From: Candidatus Kapaibacterium sp.
GTDB lineage: Bacteria > Bacteroidota > Ignavibacteria > Kapaibacteriales > Kapaibacteriaceae
Assembly (NCBI GenBank): GCA_026390655.1
Contig: JAPLFN010000106.1
Span: 20,272 to 61,289, forward strand
Direction of reading: 5' to 3'
DNA length: 41,018 nt
This document shows, piece after piece, positions 6,075 through 26,702 of this stretch (position 1 is its first letter; each line of letters begins with the position of its first letter). Below the pieces are notes generated by a model. It saw only the letters and a program-made list of their open reading frames with translations, ran no database searches and was not told the origin of the DNA. Made by a program: the position numbers and the translations under genes.

Positions 6075-6106
6075 GATACAACGAACAGAAAATAACGGAG
6101 ACAATC

Positions 6107-8194
6107 ATGGCCAAGGCCAAGGACGCAAAGAAGAGCGGAACTGCTCAGCGTACCGATCTTTTTAATGTATCGGGGTTTGACAAAGCAACATTGCTCGATT
6201 GGTACGTAACGCAACACCTCGGTAGGCGTCTTGATGAGAAGGCGGCCAATTACCTAAAGATGGCCAAGGGATGGTCTTATCACGCACCGTTTGCCGGTCA
6301 CGATGGGATTCAGCTTGCACTCGGCAAGATTTTCCGTTCGGGTAAGGATTTCCTCTTCCCGTACTACCGTGACCTTCTCACTTCGCTCGCTGCGGGATTG
6401 ACTGTTGAAGAGATCATCGCAAATGGACTCTCCAAGGATGTGGATGTTGCAGGAGGTGGCAGACACATGAGTAACCACTTCGCCAAGATCTCCATTGGAC
6501 TTCAGAACTCGTCGTCATGCACGGGTAATCACTCACAGCAAGCTGCAGGTACAGCGCGATCAATCAAGAAGTTCAAGGGCGATGAAGTTGTGTATTGCTC
6601 TACGGGAGACAGCACAACGTCTGAAGGCTACTATTATGAAGCCGTAAACGGAGCTGATCGAGAAAAGCTTCCCTTAGTGTTCGTGATCCAGAACAACAAG
6701 TATGGCATTTCTGTGCCATTGCGGGAGCAAACAGCCAATCCAGTGGTTGCTGAGAATTTCAGTGGGTTCACAAATCTCAAAATCTTTCTGTGCGACGGTA
6801 GAGATCCTATGGACTCATATCGTACGCTCGAAAAGGCAAGGGCATATGCATTGAGTGGTAAGGGGCCGGCGATGGTGCATGCGGACTGTGATCGCATAGG
6901 TTCACATTCCAATTCTGACAACCACGAGCTTTACCGGACGAAGGAAGACATCGACGCAATGAAGTTGCGCGATCCGTTGCCGAGAATGCGGGCAACGATC
7001 ATCGCTGCTGGTATTGCTACCGACGCCGAGCTTCTGGCGCTCGAAGAGGCTAATAAGGTCGCGATCTTTGCGGCTGCTGATGCAGTAGAGCCCCTTGCCG
7101 ATCCAGCTCCTGAATCATACAAAGAGTTTCTTTTGCCGGACGCAGTGGTTGGGTACAACGATGCGAGTGAATCTCTATGGATGCCGCCTGCAGGCGCTCC
7201 TTTGGTGACATTCCGTGAAGGCATCTTGAATGCAATGAAGGAAGAATTCCGACGTAACTCAAGCACCTTTCTGTTCGGTCAAGACGTAGCATCTGAGAAG
7301 AAGCAGGGCATTTTTAACGTCTGTAAGGGAATGTTAGACGAGTTTGGAAACGACCGCGTTTTCAACGCACCCATAGCTGAAGACTTCATTGTTGGGACGG
7401 CGAACGGAATGACCCGCTACCGGGACGATATACGAGTAGTCGTTGAGGGGGCTGAGTTTGCCGACTATTTCTGGCCAGCCATGGAGCAGTTGATCGAGTG
7501 CACCCATGATTATTGGCGAACACGGGGTCAGTTTTCCCCAGCCGTGGTAATTCGTCTTGCATCTGGTGGGTACATCCAGGGTGGTTTGTATCACTCTCAG
7601 AACCTTGAGGGTACGTTCACAACACTGCCTGGGCTGCGAGTGGTCTGCCCCTCTTTTGCGGACGATGCCGTAGGACTTATGCGAAACTCCATTCGGTCGC
7701 GAGGAACCACGATGTTTCTTGAGCCAAAATTCCTCTATAACTACCGCCCCACTTCTTCGGCGATGCCTCCTGAGGACTTTATTATTCCGTTTGGAAAGGC
7801 CAAGATTCGCAGACCCGGCACGGATGTTACCGTAGTTACCTACGGAACGCCCGTCCATTGGAGCCTCCAAGCTGCCGAAACTCTCCAAGCAGAAGGAATA
7901 AACGTTGAGGTAATCGATCTTCGATCGCTGGCTCCTTGGGACCGCGAGTTGGTCTTTGAGCGAGTCAAACGCACGGGAAGGTGCGTTGTGGTTCATGAGG
8001 ACAAGAAAACAGGTGGTTTTGGCGGAGAGATCGCATCGGCAATCGGCGAGGAGCTTTTTAGGTTTCTTGACGCTCCTGTAGCCAGGTTGGGATCCAAAGA
8101 CACACCTGTTGGCTTCGCCAAGAGCCTCGAAAGCGCCACCCTTGTCAATGTTGGCGACGTGATGGAAGCCATCCGCAAGACGATGGCTTTCTAA
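6107..8194 (+). CDS. 2-oxoisovalerate (branched-chain 2-oxoacid) dehydrogenase E1, fused alpha+beta subunits
   Basis: Alpha half with ThDP region STGDSTTSEGYYYEAVNGADREKLPLVFVIQNNKYGISVP; beta half NAPIAEDFIVGTANGMTRYRDDIRVVVEGAEFADYFWPA...VVHEDKKTGGFGGEIAS in one frame. Confidence 0.92.
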   Translation: MAKAKDAKKSGTAQRTDLFNVSGFDKATLLDWYVTQHLGRRLDEKAANYLKMAKGWSYHAPFAGHDGIQLALGKIFRSGKDFLFPYYRDLLTSLAAGLTVEEIIANGLSKDVDVAGGGRHMSNHFAKISIGLQNSSSCTGNHSQQAAGTARSIKKFKGDEVVYCSTGDSTTSEGYYYEAVNGADREKLPLVFVIQNNKYGISVPLREQTANPVVAENFSGFTNLKIFLCDGRDPMDSYRTLEKARAYALSGKGPAMVHADCDRIGSHSNSDNHELYRTKEDIDAMKLRDPLPRMRATIIAAGIATDAELLALEEANKVAIFAAADAVEPLADPAPESYKEFLLPDAVVGYNDASESLWMPPAGAPLVTFREGILNAMKEEFRRNSSTFLFGQDVASEKKQGIFNVCKGMLDEFGNDRVFNAPIAEDFIVGTANGMTRYRDDIRVVVEGAEFADYFWPAMEQLIECTHDYWRTRGQFSPAVVIRLASGGYIQGGLYHSQNLEGTFTTLPGLRVVCPSFADDAVGLMRNSIRSRGTTMFLEPKFLYNYRPTSSAMPPEDFIIPFGKAKIRRPGTDVTVVTYGTPVHWSLQAAETLQAEGINVEVIDLRSLAPWDRELVFERVKRTGRCVVVHEDKKTGGFGGEIASAIGEELFRFLDAPVARLGSKDTPVGFAKSLESATLVNVGDVMEAIRKTMAF

Positions 8195-8238
8195 GTCTGT
8201 GTGAACAACTCCTGACACTGTGAAGCCCCCTTGCGCCG

Positions 8239-8263
8239 TAAGCCGTTTTACAAAAATGGCTTA
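8239..8263 (+). other. Stem-loop downstream of the E1 gene (11-bp stem, 3-nt loop, no U-tract)
   Basis: taagccgtttt-aca-aaaatggctta, complementary with one G-U pair. Confidence 0.6.
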
Positions 8264-8290
8264 GGGCCATCCCCTCCCACCATCTTTCTC

Positions 8291-8322
8291 TTTGGTGGGT
8301 ATCAAAATCAGCCATATATTTG
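8291..8322 (+). promoter_or_regulatory. Bacteroidota-type promoter, TTTG-N20-TATATTTG
   Basis: TTTG at 8291-8294, 20-nt spacer, TATATTTG at 8315-8322; matches the Bacteroidetes -33/-7 consensus TTTG-N19-21-TAnnTTTG. Confidence 0.65.
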
Positions 8323-8451
8323 CAGGCTTCGCACTGTGGACTTGGTATGCGTTAAAGTATACCTCAGGTCTAGAGTGTGAGGATTGGGTAATATGAATGA
8401 ACGTGCGCCTTCAAGTTGGGGGCGTACACTCCGAGAGCAACAGAGGAGTGC

Positions 8452-9171
8452 ATGAGCACAGAACGTCAGGAAACAGTACAGGACAATGCATCTTCGCCAC
8501 GCGCGAACGGTAGCGGATTGCTTACAATAGCAGACCGACTTCGATCGCAGTGGAAGATTGTTATTGGTGTGATCGTTGTTCTCGGGATAGCGACTGGCGC
8601 GTATTGGTGGTATACCAACGATCGCACAGAGCGCAATGCCGAGGCATCAACGCAGCTATCTCGTATACGAATGACCTTTGACCTTGGAGAATATTCTAAA
8701 GCCCTAACCGGAGATTCGGTTCCCCCGGTGGGAGCTGATAAGGTGAAGGGGCTTTTAGAGATCAGTGAAGATTACTCAGGAACAGATGCAGGCTCCGTGG
8801 CGGCATTAATGTCCGGTAACGCCTTGCTCAACCTTGGGAGGTTTGCAGAAGCCCAGGTTCAATTTGAGCGCGCGCAGTCTTCGGACGCTCAAATAGTGGA
8901 AATTGGTGCTTTGCAAGGACTTGCGTCATGCAAAGAGGCAGCGAAGGACTTTCAAGGCGCGGCATCTATATATGAGAAGGCCGGAACGCAGGGAGCCAAG
9001 AGTGGCCTTGAAGACCGTTGCTACTATCATGCTGCATTATGTTTTGAGAAGGCCGGAAACAAGGAAAAAGCCATCGAATTGTACACTCTGGTCATAAAAA
9101 AGTTTGAAATGTCAGAAGTTGCTGCCTCCGCTCGCGGGGGGTTGGCAAGGCTTGGCATGGCAATTGATTAG
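8452..9171 (+). CDS. Membrane-anchored TPR protein (YfgM/UPF0070-like)
   Basis: Single TM segment (WKIVIGVIVVLGIATGAYWWY) followed by TPR-like repeats; ATG 8452 with gaggag upstream. Confidence 0.72.
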   Translation: MSTERQETVQDNASSPRANGSGLLTIADRLRSQWKIVIGVIVVLGIATGAYWWYTNDRTERNAEASTQLSRIRMTFDLGEYSKALTGDSVPPVGADKVKGLLEISEDYSGTDAGSVAALMSGNALLNLGRFAEAQVQFERAQSSDAQIVEIGALQGLASCKEAAKDFQGAASIYEKAGTQGAKSGLEDRCYYHAALCFEKAGNKEKAIELYTLVIKKFEMSEVAASARGGLARLGMAID

Positions 9172-9263
9172 CATCCCACGGCATTTTGCGCCCTTTTCCC
9201 TATATGAAGCTGAAAAAAAAAGTGAAAGAATTAAAGCATAAGATTTTTACAACTGGAGGTTGT

Positions 9264-12200
9264 ATGCAACGTTGGTTTCGTCTAAGCAGCTTGCTGCTTG
9301 TGCTAACCACGGCATTTAATGTAGCCCTATCGCAGGGTTACGTGGAGGTTCGTGGTAGTCTTCCTCCGGGCTCGGTGCGCGTATTCGTACGCGACACCAT
9401 TTATCGTATCAGCGGGTCGTACACCATAGGTGGAACACTCCTGATCGAGCCTGGAACACGAGTTGAGTTTCTACCGAACGGTCGGTTAGTAGACTCAACT
9501 GGTGGTCGTATTATTGCTGATGGGCGTGCGTCTGCGACGTATTTCCCGAATGCAGTGAATCCGTTGTTTCCGCCGTACACGGGCTATGATGACCCAACGT
9601 ACTTCGGATCACCAGGCGTCGTGGTATCCACGATTGCTACGGAGCCGACCATTCACCCGTCGAAGTATCCTACGATCTTCAACGTGGACCTCGGATCTAA
9701 TCCGAATCTTCAAGGTCTGACGCCAGCCAAGGCTATCATGTACAAGGCTGCCCGTCTCGAACTTGGAACGGTTATTTCCGCGATCCGTCTAAATCCTTGG
9801 TTCCGTCCAACGGGCCAAGCGATCAACGTCAGCGCAGCACGAATTCTTTTCGTAGCTGGTGACGTAAACAACTTCTCGCGTGAATGGGGCCACATCGTGG
9901 TTCTCCCAGGTGCGCGGGCAGCCTTTTTCCGTGACGTTGACTTCCTGAACTTCCGCAAGGACACTACGGTTGACAACGAGCCGGTATACCTAGCCAACAA
10001 CACAGGTTCGGTGTTCACGCGTCAGCAAGCCGAAACGGCAAACGACGCCCTTCTTCGTGCCTCGAACGGTGGTGGCGGTGCCATTACGACGTTCTCCTCA
10101 CGCACGTGGATAGTGGGCTGTACGTTCCGTAACAATATGGCACGCTATCGTGGTGGTGCTTTGCAGATCTTGCAAGCTCCAGTTGACCAATTCGCGGGTT
10201 CAAGCCTGCAATTGTGGCCGGTTATTTCGCAAAGCACAATGAACGCTTTGCCACAGTATCCTGCAACACTCAACCCTTTCCTTACGAGTCCTCTGACGGC
10301 AGCGCCGATCGACCAAGGACTTCGTATCACCGATCGAATCTACGATTCGGCTCCTGAGACTTTCACGGACAACGATCGCCAAGCGATCGATGATGCTCGT
10401 CTTGCTATGTACCTCGGTCGCATCCGTCAAATTCGCTTCACGTCTAACCGCGCGTTGCTTGCTGATGTTGACACTGTACGTATCGGAGCAATTCGCGTAG
10501 TAACAGATGCTAACCGTCCAGCAACCGTCTTTACAACCACGGGTCGTTCACAAAAGAACGAAGCGTCAGGTGGAGCTGTTTACATCAGTGGTCGCGATCC
10601 TATGATCGTTGGCTTTGGTATCAACGACTTCCAGGGTAAAGACACAATTGAATTCAACAGCAACTGGGCAGAGAACCGTCAACCATCAACTGTAGTAGGC
10701 AACAACGTTCGCACCCTTGGTGCACGCGGTGGTGCTGTACACGTTGCTGATCAAACGAGCGTTCTTTTTGCTGGTCGCTACTCGACGAACAAGACCATGA
10801 CGCCGTACATTACGAACGTCTCGTCGGACCCGGTTAATAGCGTTGGAAACTTCTCACAGGGTGGTGGTATTTACGCCGCCGCTGCTGCTTTGCAAATCCA
10901 GATCCGCGGTAATCTTGACAACAACCCACCTACGCACTTCCTCGGCAACGAGTCTGGTCGCGGGGGAGCTGTTTATGTTGCTGCCGGTGTAAATGATACC
11001 TTGATGTCTCCGTGGATCGGTGGCTCTGATGGAATCATTAATGCTCGTAACTATGGTTTCAACATCAAGTTCCGCGACAATCGCGCTTCTGTAGATGGTG
11101 GAGCTGTGTTTACAGCGCGTAACATGTATATGTACGGTTCGGGTGGAGCGAGCGGTCCCCTCTGGGTTTATGGCACCAATTATGGTGTTGAATTCCAGAA
11201 CAATACTGCAAACTTCTCGGGCGGTGCTATCACTGTTGCCATTCCGCAGAATCTTCCAATCTGGCGCCGCACTCTTCGCTTTATCCGTGGTAGCTTCATC
11301 AACAACCGTGTTGGAGAGGTAGCTGACTCGATTAAGGCAAGTGTTCGTGGTGGTGGTGCTCTCTATACGATCAATGCCGACCTCAACGTAGTTAAGGGTG
11401 TAGAATTCCGGGCTAATAAGGCTTGGAATGGTAATGGCGGCGCTATCGCTGTTGTTACTCCAGACACGCTCACACGCAAGCGTTACATGGTAACTGATCT
11501 AGACAACATCATCTACAATGGTCTAGGTGTTGCTGTTGGTTACACACCTCGTAATGATGTGTTTACCTTCCAGACAATGACCCCACGCGCAGACGAACGG
11601 ATGCTCACACGCTTCTATGATAACGTAGCGAACCAAAATCCTAGTCGTCAAGGTAGCGGTACTACTCAACGTGGCGATATCCGTGTGACACACCCAGGTA
11701 CAACCCTCCGTGAAAACGGAACAGGCCTTGGTGGTGCTATCTACATTCTCGATAGCGTTCGCGTTCGTGTTGACACAGTAGCTTTCGACCGTGTTCGTTT
11801 CCAAAACAACACGGCATATACTGGCGCTGGCGTTTACTCGGACAACTACGACCTCAAGCTTGCTTTCGCTCGTTGTTTGATCACTGGCAACAAAGCAGTA
11901 TCAGACATTGGTCGTAGCAATGACTCGATTCGTGGCCCACTTGTAGCGTCTGAGAACCCAGCATCAAGTGATCTTGCAGGAGCGATTCTCTATGGTGAAG
12001 TCACTGGCCCACTGCCATGGACAACCTATAGCTTCGCTGCTAACTCCATCTACGACAATGACGCTCGCTTTATCATCCGCTTGCCGGATGCTCAAGACAC
12101 AAAGGGTGTACTTGCAGGAACGACTGGCATTGGTTTTGGCGGTGTTGACACACTTCGTGGCAACTACTGGGGTCGCACAGAAGCGAACGTAAACACAATC

Positions 12201-15200
12201 CTTCCTGTATCTGGCAATCCATCCTCATTCGGCCGTATTCAAGAGACATTCTTTATTGCTGGCAATGGTAAGACGCACATGCGCTTCCTGCGTCAAGCAA
12301 CAAACAACGTCACAGAACAAGGTCCGTTTGAATCAACATGGCGTTACAACTACAAGCCGATTCCGATGATTCCGGACACGCTCCTTCTCCAAGGTCGTAT
12401 CTATGACATCTTTGACAAGGGTACGGACATTAAGACAGCTGACTACTCAAGTCGTCGCATGTCTCCCGTCGAGGACTTTGCTGTTGGTATCCCACCAGCA
12501 CTGAAGGTCTACACGGATTTTACGATGCCTTCGTATAATAAGTACGTAAAGCGCACTACTCGTAATCCATTTGATGCGGAGATGTATGCTGACATAGCTG
12601 CCGTGCAAACGGAATTCATTGGCAACCATCCAATTGGTTACCCATTGTTCCTCGAAGCACGTGCAGACTACAGCGGAACTGCTGAAGTCAACAACAACGA
12701 TGCAAGAGCAATCAACGAAACAGTATTCTTCGTTATCAACGAGCGTACGGGTGACTTCATCCGCACGAATCTGAAGCAGAAGACACTTACGGATACGATT
12801 TATCGTAGCCGAGTTGAACTCGTTCCTGACTCATCTAACGGTGGTGATCCAAATATCCGCCGTGCTTATGAGGGTCTTGCAACATATGGTACTGGACCAA
12901 CTCTCCTTTCCTTCCTTGCTGACAATGCAGTTGTTGAAGATTCTTCAGCTCTGTCAGGTCGCAAGTGGGATGGTTCAACAGTGATCGGTGAACTTGGTGG
13001 AGCGAACTTCCGTCTAGGAAATCGTCCAACTCTTCCAACTTCTAACTCACTTAATGGCGACGGTGGCAAGGAAACGTATTTTGGAGGTGAGCGTTATCGC
13101 GCATTGCCGGTACGTGAAGGCGACCAAGTAACTGTTGTTTCTCGCACTATCCTGTGGAAAGATGGCGTTGTTAACGCTATCAATGGTGGTATGTCATTTA
13201 CCGTTGGTAACAACACAACACCTCCTAGATTCACTGGCGCTGCGGACACACTAGGCACTTCACCGTTGATCCATCCGGAACTGCGTAATCGCGTCTTTGT
13301 ATCAGAGAATCGCCTCTATACACCAATTACGGCAGCTCAATCACCACGCAGTGGTGGACGGGGCAGCTGGTTCAACGAACCTCCAAGCTATCCGTCGGAT
13401 GCTACTGGTACGCCAATTCCAGGACGTGACATCTATGAGCGTGATTCGATCTTTACGATCACCGCGGTAGACGTTAACAAGTTCTATGACCCGCGCGTGA
13501 TCAGAGATTCGACCTTTAATGCTCGCTTGTCATACTTCTGGAACATAACGACCGGCAACTCTGCCCTTCGTTACTGGCTCCGCGACACACTCGTAAATGC
13601 GGCTAGCACCAACAACCCTAAGTGGGGTGCCCAGGGCTATCGCATGCTACGTGGTCGTCCAATCAACCCATACATCGTTCCAGGTGGAGAAGAGATCGAA
13701 GTTGTAACAAAGAACTTCCCGCCAACGCTGGAACTAGTTGATACACTCCGTAAGTCTGGCGTTGCCGAAGACGTCATCTCACGCTGGATCTACCTCTACC
13801 CATCGTACTTCCATGCGGAGCAATACGATAACAACTCTATTGCACTTTCCCAGCGCAATCCAGACAATACCAATGCCCGTTTCCTTCAACAGGACACGAC
13901 AAACTTTGGTTGGTTGGATACGAGCTCGTACCGCTTCCGCATTCACGTAGTAGACTCTATGCCGCGTTTCCTTTGGAACTACCGTGCCAATGCAGCACAG
14001 GCAGTTACATATCAGGGAATGCTAAAGGGTGACTCAACAATTGTTCTTGACCCAACAACAACGGACGCTGGTTCGTATGATGTTGCGACAGGTACCTTTA
14101 TTGATACACTGCGCATGCTCAACACTACTTCTCGTGTAGGTCGTCGTTTGGTTCAGCCAAACGCAATCCTCGACGAAGTGTATAATGATCCAGCTAATCA
14201 GCAACCTGATGACTTGAATGTTCACTTCGTCGCCAACCTAACAGACTCGCTGCGTTTCCGTCTCGACGTAAACACAGATGATGAGTTTGAGGATATGGCA
14301 GCGGTTGACACTAACCGTGCGGTTGTTAAGAAGTATGGTGTATGGGACTTCCGCTACGGTAAGACAGCCTATGGCTTCCTGTCAACGTCCGTTCGTCAAA
14401 ATCCAAATGACGCGACTCTTGATGAGGTTCTTCAGGCTCGTCCTATCTGGTTGTCTTCGCGCTACATGCGTCGTTATAACAGTGCTGGTACGGTTGACCA
14501 ATTTGCAGAAGACTTCACAACGCGCGGTCGCATCGAAGTTCGTATAGCGAACGACGAAGCCCGTGACATCTTGAAGCCAGTGAACGACTTCAACCCAGGT
14601 AATCCAACGAATGGAAACCTGAACACAGACACAGTAATGACTGTGGTTGTGAATGACGGTCACGGTGGCCTCAACACACTCACTCGTCGCTTGTTCGTTA
14701 ACGTTCAACCTCAACTTCTTGATGCGAATCTTGAAGATGCAATCGAAGATGTTGATTACAACCCAGCTCTTCTTGACTCTTCACGCCGAATCAAGGTTTA
14801 CGATCCGAACTTTGGGCAAGCTCAATCATTTGAACTCATCTACATTGATGAGTCGCGTGATTCGATTCAAGTTGACCCGTACTTCCCTGAAGCCGGTGTA
14901 CTGAAGCTAGATTCGACACGTAAGACTACACCTAAGTGGCTGAAAATCAATCCAACGAGCGGCCTGCTGTATGGCACACCACGCGTTACGGATACTCCAT
15001 TCCCGGACACAACAGTTCAAGTCACAGTAGTTGTCACAGATGCCGGCAAGCTGGTTGACATCCGCACCTACAACCTTGTAATTCGTGCACGTAACCATGA
15101 TCCTCGTCTCTTGACTTCCCCGATCATCAAGTGCGTTGAGCAGGGCAAGCCCTATTCTGACACACTACGTGTAACAGACCTCGATCTTCTTCGCAAGGAA

Positions 15201-16277
15201 GCTGACAATGAGCAGCTAACATTCGAAGTGAACGAGCCTACTGGTACTTGGACGTTCACGCCTGATCGTTTGTCAAGTCCAATTTCGGACACTCAGACGA
15301 TCGTGATCAGCACAAATGACCTGCAGGGCAACATTGTAAATGGTCGCATCAAGATTAAGGTCACGGTAACGGACCGTCAGGGCGCAAAGCACGAGCTCGT
15401 ATACGAGGTCGCAGTGTCTGCCACGACGCGATTTGTTGTAGATCTCCGTGTAGAAAACAATCTTGGCGCGTTCCAAGCCCTTCAATTCGGTCTACAGGGA
15501 ACTGAGATCGCAACTATGGGTTACGAAGACGGCGCGTTTGGTAAGCTTGACTCGAACTATTGCGAGTACGAACTTCCTCCGGTTCCATACATCGATGTCT
15601 TCGATGCACGCTGGACGATTCCAAACCGCAACGGTATTCTACGGAGTATCTATCCGTTCTCTACAACGCCTGGCGAAGCCATCTATCGTGGTCGCTTCCA
15701 AGCGGGTGGAGAAACAGGTCAGAGCTCAGCATACTATCCAGTGAAGATCTCATGGTGTCGTAGTCAGGTTCCTGCTGCTGATGCAACAAATCCTGGGTCT
15801 TACTACATCCGTGATGATCAATCTAACGGCGCACTGTTTGCCTACAATATGAAGACTGGCGTAGGTCGTTCGGCCTCCGACATTGGTCATAAGACAGACG
15901 GTAGCTGTGACACACTCGTAATCAGTCGTGATGCTATTCGCGGATTTATTATCGTCTATGACTTTACGTCTGGCGTTAATGATGGTGGAGAGACAATCAC
16001 GAATGAACTAGCCATTACAAAGACTGCTCCGAATCCATTCTCAACAACCACGGCTATTACGTTCAATGTGCCAACGACAACGAATGTGACCGTTGATGTC
16101 TACAATGCGATCGGAACACGTGTAGCAACAATCGCGAACAACTTGTTCTCGGCTGGCAGCCACACCATTGAATGGAATGGCCTGACGAGTGGTGTAATGT
16201 CTGCAAGCGGTCTCTACACAATCCGTGTTACTGACGGCGTGCACACTTCAACACAGCAAGTTGTTTTCATCCGCTAA
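9264..16277 (+). CDS. Giant (2337 aa) T9SS-secreted protein: Pmp-like beta-helix plus Ig/cadherin-like C-terminal part and T9SS type A sorting domain
   Basis: Signal peptide MQRWFRLSSLLLVLTTAFNVALS with ggaggt RBS; repeated GGA[IVL] and FxxN motifs over about 10060-11840; He_PIG-like TSGLLYGTP; C-terminus APNPFSTTTAITFNVPTTTNVTVDVYNAIGTRVAT...GLYTIRVTDGVHTSTQQVVFIR. Confidence 0.87.
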   Translation: MQRWFRLSSLLLVLTTAFNVALSQGYVEVRGSLPPGSVRVFVRDTIYRISGSYTIGGTLLIEPGTRVEFLPNGRLVDSTGGRIIADGRASATYFPNAVNPLFPPYTGYDDPTYFGSPGVVVSTIATEPTIHPSKYPTIFNVDLGSNPNLQGLTPAKAIMYKAARLELGTVISAIRLNPWFRPTGQAINVSAARILFVAGDVNNFSREWGHIVVLPGARAAFFRDVDFLNFRKDTTVDNEPVYLANNTGSVFTRQQAETANDALLRASNGGGGAITTFSSRTWIVGCTFRNNMARYRGGALQILQAPVDQFAGSSLQLWPVISQSTMNALPQYPATLNPFLTSPLTAAPIDQGLRITDRIYDSAPETFTDNDRQAIDDARLAMYLGRIRQIRFTSNRALLADVDTVRIGAIRVVTDANRPATVFTTTGRSQKNEASGGAVYISGRDPMIVGFGINDFQGKDTIEFNSNWAENRQPSTVVGNNVRTLGARGGAVHVADQTSVLFAGRYSTNKTMTPYITNVSSDPVNSVGNFSQGGGIYAAAAALQIQIRGNLDNNPPTHFLGNESGRGGAVYVAAGVNDTLMSPWIGGSDGIINARNYGFNIKFRDNRASVDGGAVFTARNMYMYGSGGASGPLWVYGTNYGVEFQNNTANFSGGAITVAIPQNLPIWRRTLRFIRGSFINNRVGEVADSIKASVRGGGALYTINADLNVVKGVEFRANKAWNGNGGAIAVVTPDTLTRKRYMVTDLDNIIYNGLGVAVGYTPRNDVFTFQTMTPRADERMLTRFYDNVANQNPSRQGSGTTQRGDIRVTHPGTTLRENGTGLGGAIYILDSVRVRVDTVAFDRVRFQNNTAYTGAGVYSDNYDLKLAFARCLITGNKAVSDIGRSNDSIRGPLVASENPASSDLAGAILYGEVTGPLPWTTYSFAANSIYDNDARFIIRLPDAQDTKGVLAGTTGIGFGGVDTLRGNYWGRTEANVNTILPVSGNPSSFGRIQETFFIAGNGKTHMRFLRQATNNVTEQGPFESTWRYNYKPIPMIPDTLLLQGRIYDIFDKGTDIKTADYSSRRMSPVEDFAVGIPPALKVYTDFTMPSYNKYVKRTTRNPFDAEMYADIAAVQTEFIGNHPIGYPLFLEARADYSGTAEVNNNDARAINETVFFVINERTGDFIRTNLKQKTLTDTIYRSRVELVPDSSNGGDPNIRRAYEGLATYGTGPTLLSFLADNAVVEDSSALSGRKWDGSTVIGELGGANFRLGNRPTLPTSNSLNGDGGKETYFGGERYRALPVREGDQVTVVSRTILWKDGVVNAINGGMSFTVGNNTTPPRFTGAADTLGTSPLIHPELRNRVFVSENRLYTPITAAQSPRSGGRGSWFNEPPSYPSDATGTPIPGRDIYERDSIFTITAVDVNKFYDPRVIRDSTFNARLSYFWNITTGNSALRYWLRDTLVNAASTNNPKWGAQGYRMLRGRPINPYIVPGGEEIEVVTKNFPPTLELVDTLRKSGVAEDVISRWIYLYPSYFHAEQYDNNSIALSQRNPDNTNARFLQQDTTNFGWLDTSSYRFRIHVVDSMPRFLWNYRANAAQAVTYQGMLKGDSTIVLDPTTTDAGSYDVATGTFIDTLRMLNTTSRVGRRLVQPNAILDEVYNDPANQQPDDLNVHFVANLTDSLRFRLDVNTDDEFEDMAAVDTNRAVVKKYGVWDFRYGKTAYGFLSTSVRQNPNDATLDEVLQARPIWLSSRYMRRYNSAGTVDQFAEDFTTRGRIEVRIANDEARDILKPVNDFNPGNPTNGNLNTDTVMTVVVNDGHGGLNTLTRRLFVNVQPQLLDANLEDAIEDVDYNPALLDSSRRIKVYDPNFGQAQSFELIYIDESRDSIQVDPYFPEAGVLKLDSTRKTTPKWLKINPTSGLLYGTPRVTDTPFPDTTVQVTVVVTDAGKLVDIRTYNLVIRARNHDPRLLTSPIIKCVEQGKPYSDTLRVTDLDLLRKEADNEQLTFEVNEPTGTWTFTPDRLSSPISDTQTIVISTNDLQGNIVNGRIKIKVTVTDRQGAKHELVYEVAVSATTRFVVDLRVENNLGAFQALQFGLQGTEIATMGYEDGAFGKLDSNYCEYELPPVPYIDVFDARWTIPNRNGILRSIYPFSTTPGEAIYRGRFQAGGETGQSSAYYPVKISWCRSQVPAADATNPGSYYIRDDQSNGALFAYNMKTGVGRSASDIGHKTDGSCDTLVISRDAIRGFIIVYDFTSGVNDGGETITNELAITKTAPNPFSTTTAITFNVPTTTNVTVDVYNAIGTRVATIANNLFSAGSHTIEWNGLTSGVMSASGLYTIRVTDGVHTSTQQVVFIR

Positions 16278-16288
16278 AGTTTTAACGA

Positions 16289-16313
16289 TAGGGCCGGAGT
16301 CAATCCGGCCCTA
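16289..16313 (+). other. Perfect 10-bp GC-rich stem-loop between T9SS cargo genes, no U-tract
   Basis: tagggccgga-gtcaa-tccggcccta. Confidence 0.7.
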
Positions 16314-16359
16314 CTCTACCGTAACGAATAAACATCCAGTTGTTAATCTTGGAGTATCT

Positions 16360-18411
16360 ATGAAGAAACAGGTATTTATTGCTGCGGCGATTGTACTCTG
16401 TTCATTCGCGATCGGTGCAGTGGATGGTATGGCGCAACAGATCTTCAACCAGTTCCAACAGCCTGAACTCGTCGTAGGTCTTCCATACCGGGATATCAAC
16501 AACTGCACAACTTCGCTTCTGAACAAGACTATACTTTCTCCATCGCAATTTGTTCTGGCCCCAACGTTTGTGAATGATCTAGATGATGGCTATGCCGTCG
16601 TCCAGTTTCCGTCTGGAGTTGTCTACAACTTCAATGGTCGCAATTACACAAGCGTATACGTCAGCATTAATGGATTTTTGACTTTTCAGAACACGAAACT
16701 TGTGCCTGCTAAAGCATCACAAGGCTTGTTCATTAATTCGTCATCTTTCCCTGACAACGTGATTGCCCCTTTTTGGGGTGACCACAGACTTCGCACTAGT
16801 GCTGACATTGGTGCCGGTTACATGCCCTCCGAAATATCGTGGGTTGTGGATGTGGATCGCGATGAAAATTGCGATACTATCAAGCCGGTTCGCCGCTGCA
16901 TCATCATTCAGTGGAAGAATCTGAACATCAATAACGCTTCGGTCAATTCGAGCGTCGCGAATTTTCAAGCTCGCCTATATCTGGGTGGTGCTTCAAACAA
17001 CAACCAGGGTCCAGTTGAATTGGCATATGGTCAAACTGGTGGTAACCCATTCACATCGAACACAACAGTGGTAACACGTGGTGCAACGGTTGGTATGAAG
17101 GGCGACGGCGGCTTCCCTGGTTTTCTATCTGATTTCTGGAATGGTCTCGTCTGGAAACCACGAGTTGGAGCAAATTCGCGCACGGATTCAACATCTGTGT
17201 GGCAGCCATCCGGTGGTCGTTCAGACGCACGTATCCGCTTCAACTCGATCGTGTATCTCACGTTCGACATGTGGGGTTTTGGAGATGCAGACACTTCTGC
17301 AGCAGCCGGGCAACGTCATGACGGTCTTCCGCAGAATCGTCGAGTGACTTCAAGTGATGCACGCGTAATTATGCGTTCAATCGTTACAAAGAGGCCACTT
17401 GACTCTGTATGGAAGCGTCAAGCGTATCAGGCTGACGTTAATCACTCTGGCCGCTACTACTTCACGAAGCTTAAGAGAGATTTCTCTGGAGACTCGATGG
17501 TAGGCAGCCGAATCATCATCTGGCGTCGCACGATTGACGTAGAACAATTCTTCCCAGGACAGGGCGTTGGCCCGAATACTGGTAAGCAAGTGTTACGAGT
17601 GATGTACGAGGGTGACGGTCTTTACGGTACAGGTGGTAAAGCTCCAGATGTAAGCAGTTTGAACCAGATCTATTATGAAGCAACAGAGTATGACGCTGGC
17701 TTGATCATGCGGTATATATCCGGTAGACTACCATACCTACCATGGGTATATGACAATGATACTACCGGCCCTGACTTTGGTAAGGTTGGCGTATCTAAAC
17801 TTGCTGACAACGTTTCATTTGGTACTGGCTCAAACGTAGGTAATGGACTGATTCGTGTTCCTGTCTACATGAACGGTAATCACACTGGTGCATTTGGAGT
17901 TCGATTCGAAACAAACTCCGACGTAGTTAGTGTTACACCCGTCATGAATGACAAAAACACTGTTGCAATTGACAATGGCTCTGACATTGTAACTCTTGCT
18001 GGCAACGGTTCATTCGATGCAACACAGCCAATTGCGTACGTGACGATGAAGGAAAAGGCAATCTTTAACTTCTCGAATATTCGGTTCAACGAGGCCATCG
18101 TTGGTTCACAGTCATTAAACATGGTCGAGTCTGAAGTTGGATCGGCTGTTTCAGTCTATCCTAATCCGACAACCTCGAATATGTCTATGGCTGTAACGCT
18201 TCCGCAAGCCGGTAACGTGTCAGTTCGTATTTACGATACGTTCGGCAAGCTTGTCAGTACGATCTTCGACGCTTCTGCTAACGTGGGAACGTTGTCTGCT
18301 ACGTGGAACGGAACAGATGCCAATGGAACTCCAGTAGTGCCAGGAACATATGTTGTTCGCGTTGATGGTGCAGGCGTTAATACGTCAAGTATGGTCACTG
18401 TAGTTCGTTAA
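16360..18411 (+). CDS. T9SS-secreted protein with possible dockerin-like and cohesin-like regions
   Basis: Signal peptide MKKQVFIAAAIVLCSFAIGAVDGMAQ; GDADTS...RRVTSSDARVIMRSIV...QADVNHSGRYYF; C-terminal YPNPTTSNMSMAVTLPQAGNVSVRIYDTFGKLVST...GTYVVRVDGAGVNTSSMVTVVR. Confidence 0.83.
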   Translation: MKKQVFIAAAIVLCSFAIGAVDGMAQQIFNQFQQPELVVGLPYRDINNCTTSLLNKTILSPSQFVLAPTFVNDLDDGYAVVQFPSGVVYNFNGRNYTSVYVSINGFLTFQNTKLVPAKASQGLFINSSSFPDNVIAPFWGDHRLRTSADIGAGYMPSEISWVVDVDRDENCDTIKPVRRCIIIQWKNLNINNASVNSSVANFQARLYLGGASNNNQGPVELAYGQTGGNPFTSNTTVVTRGATVGMKGDGGFPGFLSDFWNGLVWKPRVGANSRTDSTSVWQPSGGRSDARIRFNSIVYLTFDMWGFGDADTSAAAGQRHDGLPQNRRVTSSDARVIMRSIVTKRPLDSVWKRQAYQADVNHSGRYYFTKLKRDFSGDSMVGSRIIIWRRTIDVEQFFPGQGVGPNTGKQVLRVMYEGDGLYGTGGKAPDVSSLNQIYYEATEYDAGLIMRYISGRLPYLPWVYDNDTTGPDFGKVGVSKLADNVSFGTGSNVGNGLIRVPVYMNGNHTGAFGVRFETNSDVVSVTPVMNDKNTVAIDNGSDIVTLAGNGSFDATQPIAYVTMKEKAIFNFSNIRFNEAIVGSQSLNMVESEVGSAVSVYPNPTTSNMSMAVTLPQAGNVSVRIYDTFGKLVSTIFDASANVGTLSATWNGTDANGTPVVPGTYVVRVDGAGVNTSSMVTVVR

Positions 18412-18434
18412 TCGAACTATTGGCGACCTTCGAA

Positions 18435-19580
18435 ATGAAAAACTATGTGATGTGTATGCTGGCCGTTCTAACGGCGGCCAGCTGCCTCACAGCTCAGGAT
18501 ACACTGACAATTCGATCTGAACGAATCGTTGATGTATGTTCTTCGGAAAAGCGGTGGCTGATCGCTCCTAGTCTTGGGAGAGTTACTTCTCAAGACAGCC
18601 TCATGTCCTTTGACATTACGATTGGGTATGACACACTGGTCACTAGACCAACTGATGTGTTGACGGAAGGAACGCTTTCCGCCAATCTTGACTTTAGACC
18701 AACCATGAATTTGGTTATCCGAGGCGAGATGCGAATTGCAGGCTTCAATATCCTGAATCCGATGGTTGGCAATAAACCGCTCTTTGCTATTGCAGGAGAG
18801 TTTCTTGGTACTTGTACAAGTGAAGACCTGATGACTATTCCGTGGCCGATGGACTTCAACAGTGAATTCAAGAAGATGGTGACGGTATATAGGATTGAAC
18901 CAATTACAGCAGTTGCAAATGCAAGAACTAGGATGGACGTTGGAACATCGTTCGTTGCAGACAGTGCAAAGATCAATGGAAAGGACAGTATAGGTAGAGT
19001 TAGAGTTCTCATGCGATTGCCAAACCTTTCAAATACAAGTGTGAAAGCTAGGTTCAGTGTAGCAGATACTGCAGTGCTTTCTGTGATAGGGATTACAGCA
19101 ACAGGGGCTACAGTGGAAAGTATCGTCTTTTTGAATGGTGGTGTTGCGGAAGCATCATTAACACAAACGGGAGTTTCGCAGCCGGAGTTGGAAGTGTCAC
19201 TGGCCAATAGAACGGGACGTGGAAGAGTGGCAACAGAGATAATTGCAAGTATGAACGTGATAGACACGTGTTCATGTGTCAAGGCTGGCTTGGTCGACAG
19301 TATGACGGTGATTTGTGAAAACCCAATGGTAAGTGTTCTATCCTCTGCCGATAAACACAATGATAATCTCAAGGTATCTGGCCTTGACATAAGGTGTCAT
19401 TGTGACTATGGACAGACGAATAGCATAAACGTCTTCGCTATTACTGGTCAACTCGTTGCCTCAACGGGAGAACAGAAACAGCATGAAACGTTTTTGTCAA
19501 TTGAAAGTCTTCCACCAGGGGCCTATGTAGTTGTAGGTAACTGTGGCGACAAAAGAGTAGTTACAATGGAAATAAAATGA
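18435..19580 (+). CDS. Secreted protein with possible cohesin-like domain and degenerate T9SS-like C-terminus
   Basis: Signal peptide MKNYVMCMLAVLTAASCLTAQ (ATG 18435; track uses TTG 18420); C-terminal INVFAITGQLVASTGE...LPPGAYVVVGNCGDKRVVTMEIK. Confidence 0.7.
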   Translation: MKNYVMCMLAVLTAASCLTAQDTLTIRSERIVDVCSSEKRWLIAPSLGRVTSQDSLMSFDITIGYDTLVTRPTDVLTEGTLSANLDFRPTMNLVIRGEMRIAGFNILNPMVGNKPLFAIAGEFLGTCTSEDLMTIPWPMDFNSEFKKMVTVYRIEPITAVANARTRMDVGTSFVADSAKINGKDSIGRVRVLMRLPNLSNTSVKARFSVADTAVLSVIGITATGATVESIVFLNGGVAEASLTQTGVSQPELEVSLANRTGRGRVATEIIASMNVIDTCSCVKAGLVDSMTVICENPMVSVLSSADKHNDNLKVSGLDIRCHCDYGQTNSINVFAITGQLVASTGEQKQHETFLSIESLPPGAYVVVGNCGDKRVVTMEIK

Positions 19581-19615
19581 AGAATGTCTTGATCAACTCA
19601 TCTGAGGAGTTTCGT

Positions 19616-22600
19616 ATGAATCGTCGAAATGCTCAATGGAGTGTCGGCGCCAAAATTGGCGTTGTTCTCCTGCTTGCAGCATTGATCGGCCTTGGTTCGC
19701 AAGTGCTTTCAGCGCAAACGAACAAACCCGAGCTGCCGACAATCTCGCTGACAGGTTCTGGCGGAGGATGGAACACAACCTACTATCCCGACGGCCGAAT
19801 CTGGACATCAACCCAGGGTTCAAATGGGCAACGCGAACTACTTGTTCCCGTGTTCATTAAGAACTGCTGGCGTACAACAGACACGTACAAAACGTTTCCG
19901 ATCTACAGCTTTAAGTTCAAGGTCCAGTTCGACAGCACTGCACTTGAACTAATCGGAATCGACAAAAACGGTCCTAACCGCGGTCCACAATTCACTCCAC
20001 TTGGGTGCCTTGGTCGTGACTTCGAGTACTCCGTTTTCGTTGCTCGTGACACTACATTTCAAAGTGTTATCGGAGCTCCAATTCAAAACCGTTTGCGTGG
20101 CAAGCGTGCGATGATTACTGCTATATCATCGAAGGCTCTTCCACAAACAGGAGATCCATCTCAGCCTTGCGATCAGCGTCCGTACACAGAACTCGTGTAC
20201 TTGCGTTTTAAGGTTGTTGCCAATCCTTCAATCAATCAAGAGAGCTCACGTACACCGCTTATCGTAACGAACGATACCCTGTACTACAATGACTTTCAGA
20301 TGGGTAAAGAGCTTGCATTCCCTGGTGATGTTGCTCCCGGCCAATTTGCAGGACTTGGTGGCGTTGACAATTACTATACCGACGGTCTCGGGCAAGAGCA
20401 GATTCGTGATCCGCTGCGTCCATCAAAGCCTGGTATGATCTGGCTTGAAGTAACAGACGTTTCACCGCGCTTGTCATTCACGAACGTATCTAACCCAGCA
20501 TTCCGCCTTGTTGACTCAGTTAATCAGTCAGGTGGTTCAAAGTGGTTTGTAGTTGACCCAATTACAATTGACTACGGTAGCAACTACGATGATCAGCCAA
20601 ATGGAATGGGAACACGTGACATTGATGTAATCAATGCCGTTACAGGTACTCGTGCCTATGAGATTATGGTTCAGTCTGATTCTAAGTGGCTTAAATTCAA
20701 GTCGTTCCTTAAGGGCGGCCAAGGCGAAATCAACCCATTCCCTCAGCCAGTGCGTGAAGGATATGTGCAGTACATGGATAAGGGTATCCTTGGAACGACA
20801 CTCGGTGTGACGCCATTTGGTGATCCAACAGTTGGTCAACGTGACTTGAACTTCCGTATTCTCTGTGACCCAAATGAACTTCCAAACGGAGACGATCAAG
20901 AAATTTGTGGTACGTATGTAGGCTACCTCTCGTTCAAGTCAACGTCACTCGACGTTTCACCTGTTCGCGTAAAAGTCACGTTCATCTATTTCCGCACCCC
21001 GTACGAGCCGAACGTTTTTGATGAAAACAACAACTGGAAGCGTGGCCAGGAGTTTCTTGGACGCGGTGTAACGCTTGACATTCGTAACTCCAACAATCCA
21101 ATCGAACGTACTTTCATCACCTTTGGTGTTGGAAATCGTGCTACAGACTTGGTCGATACCCTCTTTGGAGAAACAGTCTATACAACGCCTGTTAACTCGT
21201 TTGGCGCTCGTTGGTATCCTAAGGATAAAACCGGTGCAGACATCTACCAGTATGGTCTTGGTGATCTCTGGACAGCAACGGCACAACGTCCTAAGGGTGC
21301 TTCGCGCGATATCCGTTCGATCTACACTGACACTACTATCCTTTACACATGTAAGTTCAATGCTGGTAGCAATTTGAACTACCCAGTAGTTGTTGCGTGG
21401 AACACTGATGAGTTTACTCCAGGTTCGCAATTGTTCATCCGTGATATCCTGAACGGAACACGTTTCAACGTCGACATGCGCCAAGGTACAGTTGTTGGTG
21501 GAACGAGACAGTCATTCACAATTCGTGATGCTGACATCGACGCCTTCGTTATCGAGTACACTCTTCCATTGGTAGCTCAGTTCCCGGTCATCAACAAGGG
21601 TTGGAATCTTCTTTCCGTCCCTGTTAATCCGTCATCGAGCTACTGGAAAGATGTGTTTAAGAATGCTCTGAATATCCCAATTCGTTTTGCTCAGAACTCG
21701 TACCAGACTAACGAAACAAATCTTGCCCCGGGTGTAGGTTACTTCGTGAAGTATTCAGAACAAGTTGACAAAACCGTCGCTGGTTCACGTATCCGCAATA
21801 TCAACGATCAGAGCTACCCAACACGTGTTTACGAAGGTTGGAACACAATCGGTTCGTTGTCATCACCAACATCGACGCAGAACGTTTCCTTGCTTCCATT
21901 CGGAACAGGTGCCTTCCCTGCTATCATTGGTGACATCTATGGATACGTTACTAACCGTGGATACCAAGCTGTAACAGAAATCCAGCCTGGTCTAGGTTAT
22001 TGGATGAAGATGAGTGGCCAAGCATACCTAGCCATGTGCTGCGGCACGCTCGGTAAGAGTGGCGTAAACTTCTCAGGTGTACGTGAGACAGTGAAGGCAA
22101 ATGCAATGCGTGTGACGATCAGCGACAACGCAGAGAACGTTGGCGATGTGTTTGTTGCACAGCAGGGTTCACTTGAAACGCGTAATGTGTTTGAGTTGCC
22201 ACCACTTCCACCAAACAACTTGTTCGACGTTCGTTTCTCTGATCAAACGTACATCAACGACGAAGCTAGCCCGCTGATTCAACTCCAAGGTGCTACATTC
22301 CCAATCACGGTAACAGTGAACAACCCTGGTCGTTCATATGTTGTCACGAACCCTATCTCGGGTGCAGTGCTTGGAACTCTCGTCTCTGGCCGTAATAACA
22401 CGATCACCATCACAGATTCACGCACACCTTACCTCCGCCTTCTCGGACAAGATGCAGATGTTACCGCTCTTACGGTTTCCGTCTCACCTAATCCGACAAG
22501 CACGACTGGTATGGTTAACGTAACTGTGCCTCAGGCTGGTCGCGTAACGGTTGGCGTTTATGACGCAGTTGGTCAACTTGTAGCAACAGTAGTTGATGAA

Positions 22601-22723
22601 GAGAAGACCGCAGGCATCTACGGTTTCGATCTGAATACAGCAACGCTTGCTCAAGGCCGCTACATCGTAAAGGTCTCGTCTAACGGCATCACGGCGATGA
22701 GCTCGGTTTCAGTTGTCCGTTAA
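19616..22723 (+). CDS. Large T9SS-secreted protein with cohesin-like N-terminus, duplicated GWN domain and T9SS type A sorting domain
   Basis: TM/signal segment IGVVLLLAALIGLGSQVLSAQ; tgaggag upstream of ATG 19616; KGWNLLSVP...APGVGYFVKY and EGWNTIGSLS...QPGLGYWMKM; C-terminal SPNPTSTTGMVNVTVPQAGRVTVGVYDAVGQLVAT...GRYIVKVSSNGITAMSSVSVVR. Confidence 0.83.
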   Translation: MNRRNAQWSVGAKIGVVLLLAALIGLGSQVLSAQTNKPELPTISLTGSGGGWNTTYYPDGRIWTSTQGSNGQRELLVPVFIKNCWRTTDTYKTFPIYSFKFKVQFDSTALELIGIDKNGPNRGPQFTPLGCLGRDFEYSVFVARDTTFQSVIGAPIQNRLRGKRAMITAISSKALPQTGDPSQPCDQRPYTELVYLRFKVVANPSINQESSRTPLIVTNDTLYYNDFQMGKELAFPGDVAPGQFAGLGGVDNYYTDGLGQEQIRDPLRPSKPGMIWLEVTDVSPRLSFTNVSNPAFRLVDSVNQSGGSKWFVVDPITIDYGSNYDDQPNGMGTRDIDVINAVTGTRAYEIMVQSDSKWLKFKSFLKGGQGEINPFPQPVREGYVQYMDKGILGTTLGVTPFGDPTVGQRDLNFRILCDPNELPNGDDQEICGTYVGYLSFKSTSLDVSPVRVKVTFIYFRTPYEPNVFDENNNWKRGQEFLGRGVTLDIRNSNNPIERTFITFGVGNRATDLVDTLFGETVYTTPVNSFGARWYPKDKTGADIYQYGLGDLWTATAQRPKGASRDIRSIYTDTTILYTCKFNAGSNLNYPVVVAWNTDEFTPGSQLFIRDILNGTRFNVDMRQGTVVGGTRQSFTIRDADIDAFVIEYTLPLVAQFPVINKGWNLLSVPVNPSSSYWKDVFKNALNIPIRFAQNSYQTNETNLAPGVGYFVKYSEQVDKTVAGSRIRNINDQSYPTRVYEGWNTIGSLSSPTSTQNVSLLPFGTGAFPAIIGDIYGYVTNRGYQAVTEIQPGLGYWMKMSGQAYLAMCCGTLGKSGVNFSGVRETVKANAMRVTISDNAENVGDVFVAQQGSLETRNVFELPPLPPNNLFDVRFSDQTYINDEASPLIQLQGATFPITVTVNNPGRSYVVTNPISGAVLGTLVSGRNNTITITDSRTPYLRLLGQDADVTALTVSVSPNPTSTTGMVNVTVPQAGRVTVGVYDAVGQLVATVVDEEKTAGIYGFDLNTATLAQGRYIVKVSSNGITAMSSVSVVR

Positions 22724-22743
22724 ACGGTAATGTAAATTCAAAG

Positions 22744-22775
22744 AAAGGGCAGCAGGTAACTGCTGCCCTTTTTTG
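22744..22775 (+). terminator. Rho-independent terminator
   Basis: aaagggcagcag-gtaa-ctgctgcccttt followed by tttt: 12-bp stem, tetraloop, U-tract. Confidence 0.92.
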
Positions 22776-22792
22776 TTCACGGTAGGTGTCGT

Positions 22793-23575
22793 ATGAATAA
22801 ACTCGCGTTTGTAGGTGTCCTCTCATTCGTGATGGTGTACTCAGCTGCATCGCAGCTCGTTGAGTTCCCAATGACATTTGTGAATGTACTTCCTACTGAG
22901 CGCAAGGCATTCAACTTTACGTTTGCTGCCCATCCTAGGGCAACTGCAGACGTGGATACACTATTGGGCGAGCGAGAGATCCCATCTATTCCACCTCCTG
23001 CCGGTGTCTATTTCGTCTACACTGTCCCGCCATCAGTTGAATACCTATGGCTGAGCCCGAAAGACATTCGAAAGATGAAGGCTGGTGTGCGCTTCAGAGA
23101 GGACTATGATGTTAATATTCTGTGGACCGGCGGTAAGTTAGAAGTTAGTTGGAAGAGCCCCCTTCCCGAACTTGTGGACTCCGCGTATCTGGTTGATGCG
23201 CTAACGGACTTCCCAGACAATTTTATCAAGGTCAAGATTGAGCCAGGTACGTCATTTACAACGGACAATCCAGCCATAACACGGTTAAAGCTTCTCGTTT
23301 GGTATAACGGCACTACTACCGGGGTTAATGAAGACGCAGTGCCTTCAAACATCTCGCTGCATCCGAATCCAACTACAGACGGATTTTTCCTTGATGAAGT
23401 AGAGCCAGGCTCCATAATCTCAATGATTGATGTGCAAGGGGCTTTTGTGGCAAAGACAGAGGCCACATCTCCTCGGCAGTGGATCGATTTGTCAAGCTTT
23501 GCTAGTGGCCTTTATGTTGCCGTAGTACTGCAGCCAAACGGTACCGTGGTGCATAGAACTGTTGTACGACAGTAA
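22793..23575 (+). CDS. Secreted protein with T9SS-type C-terminal sorting domain
   Basis: Signal peptide MNKLAFVGVLSFVMVYSAAS; C-terminal HPNPTTDGFFLDEVEPGSIISMIDVQGAFVAKTE...GLYVAVVLQPNGTVVHRTVVRQ. Confidence 0.77.
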   Translation: MNKLAFVGVLSFVMVYSAASQLVEFPMTFVNVLPTERKAFNFTFAAHPRATADVDTLLGEREIPSIPPPAGVYFVYTVPPSVEYLWLSPKDIRKMKAGVRFREDYDVNILWTGGKLEVSWKSPLPELVDSAYLVDALTDFPDNFIKVKIEPGTSFTTDNPAITRLKLLVWYNGTTTGVNEDAVPSNISLHPNPTTDGFFLDEVEPGSIISMIDVQGAFVAKTEATSPRQWIDLSSFASGLYVAVVLQPNGTVVHRTVVRQ

Positions 23576-23605
23576 CTTCAAGTACGCAAGAAAAGGTTGA
23601 TTGTA

Positions 23606-24829
23606 ATGAGTGAAGAACAACAAGGGGATAGACCACAGCGAAGGCGCAGATCACGTAGACGTTCGGGCGGTTCCAACGTTACGGCCCAGACGCAAGGTCA
23701 TGTGGAATCGGACCAGCCTGCACAAGGTCAGTTGGAGGCAGGCCACGAGGATGCTCGACCAAACAGACCAGAGAGAACAGAGCAACGCAACCCTAACCAA
23801 CGCAGGTCACATCCTCACCAAGAACAGCGGTCCGGTGATCAATCCCGGTATTCAAACCAACGAAACGATAGAAGAACACGTGCTGATCAGCTGGTTAGCT
23901 CGTCTATTTCGGTGATCATTCCCCTCTTGAATGAGGCAGAGTCACTACCTGAGCTTTCTAAGCAACTCGAGAGTGTATTGGAACGCATATCACGCGGACG
24001 GTATGAGGTTCTGTTTATCGATGATGGATCTACCGATGACTCATTCCGCGTAATTGAAGATATTCATACGCGTAATAATCGATTCAAGGCAATTCGGTTT
24101 AGAACGAATCACGGCAAATCCGCAGCACTTGCAATCGGCTTTGCTGAGAGCAAGGGCGACATCGTGATCACTATGGACGCTGACCTGCAAGATGATCCGG
24201 CAGAGATACCTGCGATGATCGCCAAGCTCGAAGAAGGCTACGACTTGGTATCTGGCTGGAAGAGAAAGCGGCACGACCCGTGGCATAAAACAATACCGTC
24301 CAAGCTCTTCAACACGGTCACTTCAAGGATGAGTGGAATACGACTACATGACTTCAATTGTGGTCTCAAGGCCTATCGTAGAGATGTGGTGAACAGCGTC
24401 CAGGTCTATGGCGAAATGCACCGATATATCCCTGCACTGGCACACTGGGAAGGATTCCGCGTAACGGAGATTCCAGTGCAACATAGAGCCCGTCAGTTTG
24501 GATCATCAAAGTTTGGAGTAAGTCGCTTTCTCAAAGGCTATCTAGATCTTCTTACTGTGATCTTTACAACTCGGTATATTAAACGCCCCTTGCACTTCTT
24601 TGGAACAGTGGGTTCAATGTTTGCAATTGTGGGCTTCGTCACAGACATGTATCTCGTAGTGGAGTGGTTCCTTGGTCACACTTCGTTGAGCAATCGCCCC
24701 CTCGCATTGTTTGGCATAGCCATGATCATTGTTGGTGTCCAGCTGATTTCTATTGGACTCGTTGGTGAACTCATAGTGAAGAATAATCTTGAGCACCAGC
24801 GATTTAGCGTTCGTGAGCGTTTGACGTAA
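23606..24829 (+). CDS. Glycosyltransferase family 2 (polyprenyl-phosphate sugar transferase type) with basic low-complexity N-terminal extension
   Basis: SISVIIPLLNEAESLPELSKQLE, LFIDDGSTDDSF, MDADLQDDP, two C-terminal TM segments; the first ~90 residues are R/Q/N/E rich. Confidence 0.88.
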   Translation: MSEEQQGDRPQRRRRSRRRSGGSNVTAQTQGHVESDQPAQGQLEAGHEDARPNRPERTEQRNPNQRRSHPHQEQRSGDQSRYSNQRNDRRTRADQLVSSSISVIIPLLNEAESLPELSKQLESVLERISRGRYEVLFIDDGSTDDSFRVIEDIHTRNNRFKAIRFRTNHGKSAALAIGFAESKGDIVITMDADLQDDPAEIPAMIAKLEEGYDLVSGWKRKRHDPWHKTIPSKLFNTVTSRMSGIRLHDFNCGLKAYRRDVVNSVQVYGEMHRYIPALAHWEGFRVTEIPVQHRARQFGSSKFGVSRFLKGYLDLLTVIFTTRYIKRPLHFFGTVGSMFAIVGFVTDMYLVVEWFLGHTSLSNRPLALFGIAMIIVGVQLISIGLVGELIVKNNLEHQRFSVRERLT

Positions 24830-24858
24830 CCTAAACTCAATTGTATTGTCATTTCACC

Positions 24859-25623
24859 ATGAACCGCCATCTATATCTAATCGTTGTAGCCATTACTACT
24901 TGTCTAGCGGTCTCGGCAGAAGCGCAGGTTCGCTTCCGCGTTGCTACGGGTCTTTCCACAGATTGGATCACAAACGATAACCCTGCTGTCTATCGTATCG
25001 CTGGTGGAGAGGATACCTCTAGCACAACAAATACGTTTGGGGGCGCATTCGACGGCGCACAAATCGGTTGGGGCTTTCGCGCGTACGCTGACCTTGACAA
25101 GCAGAAGAAATTTCGTATTCCAATCGGTGTTGATTATTACTCCTATAAGGGTACCCAGGCGATCAACGGAAACCTCTATAAGTTGCGGGTAACCCACGAA
25201 AATGTGCTTTGGACAGCCCTAACGGGTTTTGAATGGTCTTTTGTGGAGTTCCCCTGGGCGTTCGCAAGGGCATATGTAGGTGTAGAGGCACGTCTTCTTA
25301 ATGTAGGCGACAACACGATCACATCCACAGGTACTACGATCGTCAACGGCGAGGCGATCACAAACACAAGAGTAACGAACGGTAAACCATCGGCGTGGCG
25401 TCTTGGAGCCCTTGCTAGGCTTGGAATCGAAGGCGAGATTTACTACCCGGTCTTTGTGAACACAAGTGTTGGCTGGGGTGGAATGAATTTTATCGGTAGA
25501 GACACACGGCCAACGTCTGAAGGTGGGCGTGGAGAGCTTCTTACACCAACGTCGCTCAATGAATCAGGTGAGGGCATACTTTACCACATGAGCTTCACGT
25601 TCATGATCCAAGTGCGTCTCTAG
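24859..25623 (+). CDS. Secreted/outer-membrane beta-barrel-like protein
   Basis: Signal peptide MNRHLYLIVVAITTCLAVSAEAQ; alternating beta-strand pattern ending MSFTFMIQVRL. Confidence 0.6.
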   Translation: MNRHLYLIVVAITTCLAVSAEAQVRFRVATGLSTDWITNDNPAVYRIAGGEDTSSTTNTFGGAFDGAQIGWGFRAYADLDKQKKFRIPIGVDYYSYKGTQAINGNLYKLRVTHENVLWTALTGFEWSFVEFPWAFARAYVGVEARLLNVGDNTITSTGTTIVNGEAITNTRVTNGKPSAWRLGALARLGIEGEIYYPVFVNTSVGWGGMNFIGRDTRPTSEGGRGELLTPTSLNESGEGILYHMSFTFMIQVRL

Positions 25624-25651
25624 CACAATGGGCATCGCGGTTGTCTACCGC

Positions 25652-26653: not shown

Positions 26654-26663
26654 AAAGGGTGTG

Positions 26664-26695: not shown

Positions 26696-26702
26696 ACGTT
26701 CC

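Follow-up and report, generated by a model that had tools for sequence, protein, structure and literature searches.

What do the five consecutive genes at positions 9264-23575 of the window studied here, a stretch of 41,018 nucleotides from Candidatus Kapaibacterium sp., encode: the parts of one surface structure or a set of unrelated secreted proteins? A preliminary description had read them as a co-directional array of T9SS cargo proteins. The five open reading frames, here called g1 to g5, are all intact and lie on the same strand (+, as do all the features located below), which bears out their co-directionality. They correspond to proteins of 2337 residues for g1 (9264-16277), 683 for g2 (16360-18411), 381 for g3 (18435-19580) and 260 for g5 (22793-23575), with g4 at 19616-22723. 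An alternative start of g4 exists at 19577, and most of its aligned orthologues begin at or near the methionine encoded at 19616; the starts of the orthologues and the intergenic distances come from a simple choice of start codons, independent of annotation. Each of the five proteins begins with a hydrophobic stretch resembling a signal peptide, as judged by eye in these proteins and likewise in their orthologues.

The carboxy-terminal tails were compared to the TIGR04183 model, whose cut-off is 23 bits. The preliminary description had counted four clear T9SS type A-like tails, and this HMM search likewise recovered four: g1 (16029-16265, 29.0 bits), g2 (18154-18384, 31.7 bits), g4 (22481-22699, 32.0 bits) and g5 (23360-23566, 37.8 bits) all exceed the cut-off. 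A second model, PF18962, is passed by g4 and g5, and g1, g2 and g3 score below its own cut-off. The count of four was in fact cautious, as g3 also qualifies at the family level. Its divergent sorting domain (19413-19553) reaches 17.3 bits, below the cut-off when taken singly, yet of the 21 g3 orthologues, 18 have a TIGR04183 match with E<=0.05 (8e-8 for the best one), and the profile of the family matches the solved T9SS C-terminal domains 8glk (E 3e-6) and 8glj (E 7e-6). Since four proteins pass the model and the fifth qualifies as a family, all five look like T9SS cargo. The absence of any recognizable catalytic domain was also confirmed: Pfam and NCBIfam searches, extended to the orthologues of g1, g2 and g4, found no catalytic family in g1-g5.

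About 75 tails exceed the TIGR04183 cut-off in this 2.63-Mb genome, so their clustering alone is weak evidence. With such a number, neighboring cargos are not rare, and the five genes could be unrelated and adjacent by chance. Nevertheless, their order is kept across families while the flanks change, and the locus has a private module shared by several of its proteins as well as conserved RNA elements, both presented below. Chance adjacency is contradicted by this synteny and has next to no probability. It is the conservation of the gene order, and not the local clustering of tails, that is remarkable.

This conservation was studied at the level of the order in 41 loci from ten families; one of these loci (L069) extends only as far as the end of g1. 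The order and strand of g1-g2-g3-g4 are identical in 41 of 41 loci, g3 being identified by position alone in several of them. The next place is taken in 40 loci by g5 or by an unmatched frame of similar length (it was not found in L041). Two other families of the class, f13 and f19, have the identical block order among unrelated flanks, and g3 is often recognizable there by its position only. The search for conserved gene order that the preliminary description had proposed as a check therefore found the block both in the order and in these two families. In the class as a whole, g1 is present in 59 of 245 genomes and a strong g4 in 58 of these 59, with one copy per genome; the exception, G173, is 67% complete. 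Judging from these matches, the presence of g1 and g4 is all-or-none. Sampling 297 genomes of the phylum revealed no g1 outside these lineages. Within the order, g1 and g4 are absent from the sampled genomes of family f7 (G028, G036, G043 and G049), where the predicted structure would therefore be dispensable.

A block that is ancient, single-copy and all-or-none might be expected if it belonged to the T9SS machine as an accessory component, especially as some components of this machine, such as PorU and PorZ, also have sorting domains (the models share the tail). Yet the T9SS is spread across Bacteroidota at large (PMC10202324) and the block is not: most of the other families in the class lack it, as does the remainder of the sampled phylum. 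The codon adaptation reported below would, moreover, go beyond the needs of a machine part. This scenario is highly improbable. As for the machine, the genome encodes SprA (762.5 bits, above cut-off, with neighbors in the frame) and PorU (459.8 bits, above cut-off). PorU matches lie in pieces on contigs C105 and C3 of the same genome, and a further PorU-like frame of 1894 residues lies on C118 (about 5799-9494).

Directly upstream of g1 lies a gene (8452-9171) for a protein with Pfam TPR matches, a sub-threshold TPR_21 match and one predicted N-terminal membrane segment. The same gene precedes g1 in 40 of the 41 order loci (L069 is cut off) and in most f13 and f19 loci; it was not found at this place in two f13 loci. 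Its codon adaptation is low in this genome. The protein is a possible periplasmic assembly factor. Downstream of g5, the window encodes glycosyltransferases and a methyltransferase (23597-28840). The first of these, a glycosyltransferase gene, was considered as a part of the system and rejected: it accompanies the block only in families f1, f2 and f6 and was not seen outside them.

The largest protein, g1, combines a predicted parallel beta-helix with GGA[ILV]/FxxN repeats of the Chlam_PMP type (10071-12173, limits approximate), an Ig-like domain, a copy of the shared module (15438-15983) and the sorting domain. The motif GGA[ILV] occurs ten times in its first 1000 residues for 0.26 expected, and Chlam_PMP (PF02415) repeats together with the Ig-like domain were found in 17 of 17 g1 orthologues. 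Between this genome and the other families of the order, g1 proteins are 43-55% identical, which is high for a predicted surface protein. In g1 (P0001), the motif D[ST][AILVMT] for O-glycosylation is found 31 times for about 9.4 expected, an enrichment that is suggestive only, given that background proteins likewise carry this motif at 1.4-1.8 times expectation. The Pmp proteins of Chlamydia, which have the same type of beta-helix repeats, are autotransporters and function as adhesins. Contrary to them, g1 has a T9SS sorting domain at its C-terminus and includes domains other than the repeats. The universal presence of these repeats among the g1 orthologues could nonetheless indicate that the locus encodes a discrete multi-protein adhesin or appendage, a fiber or a patch used for attachment, and not a continuous coat. 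Yet g1 is conserved along its entire length, which would be unusual for an adhesin with varied targets.

The comparison of the g1, g2 and g4 family profiles with solved structures gave no match at E<=0.1. In g2, which has a weak NIDO-like N-terminal region (matched in 4 of 19 orthologues), a cohesin-like fold is predicted at 17797-18129 (AF2 strands 485-587, block pLDDT of about 77-91). The top Foldseek matches of the g2 model are the cohesin modules 2jh2 and 2o4e (E 2e-4 to 6e-4), to be read in the light of AF2 models built on about 20 sequences and of a pTM of 0.51 for g2. The g4 model is an all-beta, multi-domain chain that also includes a cohesin-like fold, and its Foldseek relatives are Ig-like adhesins as readily as cohesins. 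Among them are the adhesins PrgB and antigen I/II, a likeness that would again suit a discrete adhesin; the HPI S-layer protein appears at rank 49 and is not significant.

The cohesin-like folds of g2 and g4, together with the dockerin-like motifs discerned by eye in g2, bring to mind a cellulosome, that is, a platform for polymer degradation assembled through cohesin-dockerin pairs. Nevertheless, no Pfam dockerin or cohesin was detected in any of the 19 g2 orthologues or among the g4 orthologues, and g2 was accordingly rejected as a dockerin protein. Contrary to cellulosomes, the block has neither Pfam matches to these modules nor enzymes, and its single copy does not vary between lineages as a substrate-specific system would. 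A degradative platform is thus very unlikely.

A module of about 150 residues is common to g1, g4 (21077-21580) and g5 (22865-23332), as detected by hhalign (E 6e-22, 1e-12 and 4e-12; 6e-22 for g1-g4 and 4e-12 for g1-g5). The genome has three copies of it, all in these three proteins, and none was found elsewhere in the genome. Apart from its sorting domain, g5 consists mainly of this module. Such a cluster-specific module is independent support for one predicted surface structure, as the preliminary description had suggested, and it adds to the synteny and to the sorting domains in favor of that proposal. A weak resemblance was also detected between the N-terminal regions of g3 and g4 (hhalign 83%, 47 columns).

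The RNA level offers a further set of conserved elements. An intercistronic hairpin without a U-tract follows the g1 stop (16287-16316, -22.9 kcal/mol, z -4.0); none of 20 other genes in the window reaches z -3. All 28 order loci examined have a strong hairpin 3' of the g1 stop, likewise devoid of a U-tract, with a median z of -5.3 (the corresponding median downstream of the TPR gene is -0.2), and 9 of 11 class loci have one as well. The hairpin sequences of the order loci are unrelated, meaning that the hairpin was kept while its sequence changed completely. After g4, the perfect terminator noted in the preliminary description was confirmed (22744-22775, with perfect arms and a run of T after them), and g5 lies beyond it. 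A stable hairpin 3' of g4 exists in 27 of 28 order loci, in most cases with T-rich sequence after it; its core is often GGGCAACA/TGTTGCCC across families, a motif found once in this genome. The short gaps, the hairpin between g1 and g2 and the hairpin or terminator after g4 fit a putative g1-g4 transcription unit. At the g2-g3 boundary, around the g2 stop and the g3 start (about 18375-18470), a hairpin is common (median z -3.4) and varies in position; more than half of the sequence preceding the g3 start is paired in only 19 of 28 loci. RNA structure at this boundary could dampen the translation of g3.

Codon adaptation was estimated with the S10 operon as reference and expressed as percentiles relative to 129 background genes. 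The values of g1 (0.753) and g4 (0.759) both correspond to the 98th percentile and are above the mean of the ribosomal proteins (0.740), and g2 (0.705) is at the 92nd percentile. By contrast with these three, g5 (0.647) is at the 38th percentile and the poorly adapted g3 (0.586) at the 2nd; low values of g3 are usual in the genomes tested. Among nine further genomes, g1, g2 and g4 are all at or above the 82nd percentile in six. In G075, g1 and g4 are at the 97th percentile and g2 at the 66th, and the small genomes G024 and G035 have no consistent excess for the three genes. Codon adaptation is only a proxy for the very high abundance typical of S-layer proteins, and its excess in g1, g2 and g4 varies between genomes. 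The fast-evolving g3 is probably a minor component.

These observations also bear on the discrete adhesin considered above, as the high codon adaptation of three proteins better fits a bulk component. Because of this adaptation and of the conservation of g1 throughout its length, we infer a coat in preference to a discrete adhesin, which is an unlikely explanation, albeit one with real weight. A gliding-motility system of the SprB kind is another scenario in which large T9SS surface proteins adjoin one another, and SprB of Flavobacterium is indeed a large surface protein delivered by the T9SS. Yet the tails of the present locus score as type A, contrary to the SprB system, and GldJ does not exceed its cut-off in any of 10 genomes that carry the block. 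Gliding is thus extremely improbable.

The best explanation is that g1-g5 are the parts of a single heteromeric structure at the cell surface, most likely an S-layer-like protein coat of high abundance, a reading to which we give somewhat better than even chances. The likeness to an S-layer is drawn by analogy from Tannerella forsythia, whose T9SS-dependent S-layer is made up of TfsA and TfsB; both of these distinct proteins are needed and T9SS mutants lack the layer (PMC4175972; PMC12175726). Like TfsA and TfsB, the proteins studied here include large secreted proteins that end in T9SS C-terminal domains. Contrary to that two-protein system, five proteins would be involved, among which a beta-helix, folds of the cohesin type and a private module are predicted.

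In the case of a coat, g1, g2 and g4 would be its major building blocks, and g3 and g5 minor parts with linking, capping or anchoring roles. All five proteins would cross the inner membrane through Sec and, once their C-terminal sorting domains have been recognized, leave through the SprA/Sov pore; PorU would process and probably anchor them. Outside the cell, the long Pmp-type beta-helix of g1 may pack with g2 and g4, the contacts being provided by the cohesin-like and other beta folds as well as by the module of g1, g4 and g5. RNA structures are known to set mRNA stoichiometry within E. coli operons (PMC5927463). In a similar manner, the hairpin that follows g1 would give more g1 than g2-g4 from a single mRNA, with g5 being set apart or reduced by the terminator downstream of g4.

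The literature searches yielded no account of the locus or of a comparable surface structure in Kapabacteria-like bacteria, and a T9SS structure of this kind appears to be undescribed in them. It is possible, and proposed here tentatively, that the locus represents a new five-protein layer or organelle of these bacteria built by the T9SS, held together by the private g1/g4/g5 module and the cohesin-like folds and with a stoichiometry set by the conserved hairpin between g1 and g2. The characterization of g1, g2 and g4, which are clear targets for proteomics and cryo-ET, could evaluate these hypotheses, and the hairpin after g1 offers a testable case of conserved control of mRNA stoichiometry. 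If the coat reading is true, T9SS-exported coats would extend beyond Tannerella. More generally, a large and mostly uncultured lineage would have a defining surface component in this single-copy T9SS set of invariant order and high predicted abundance.
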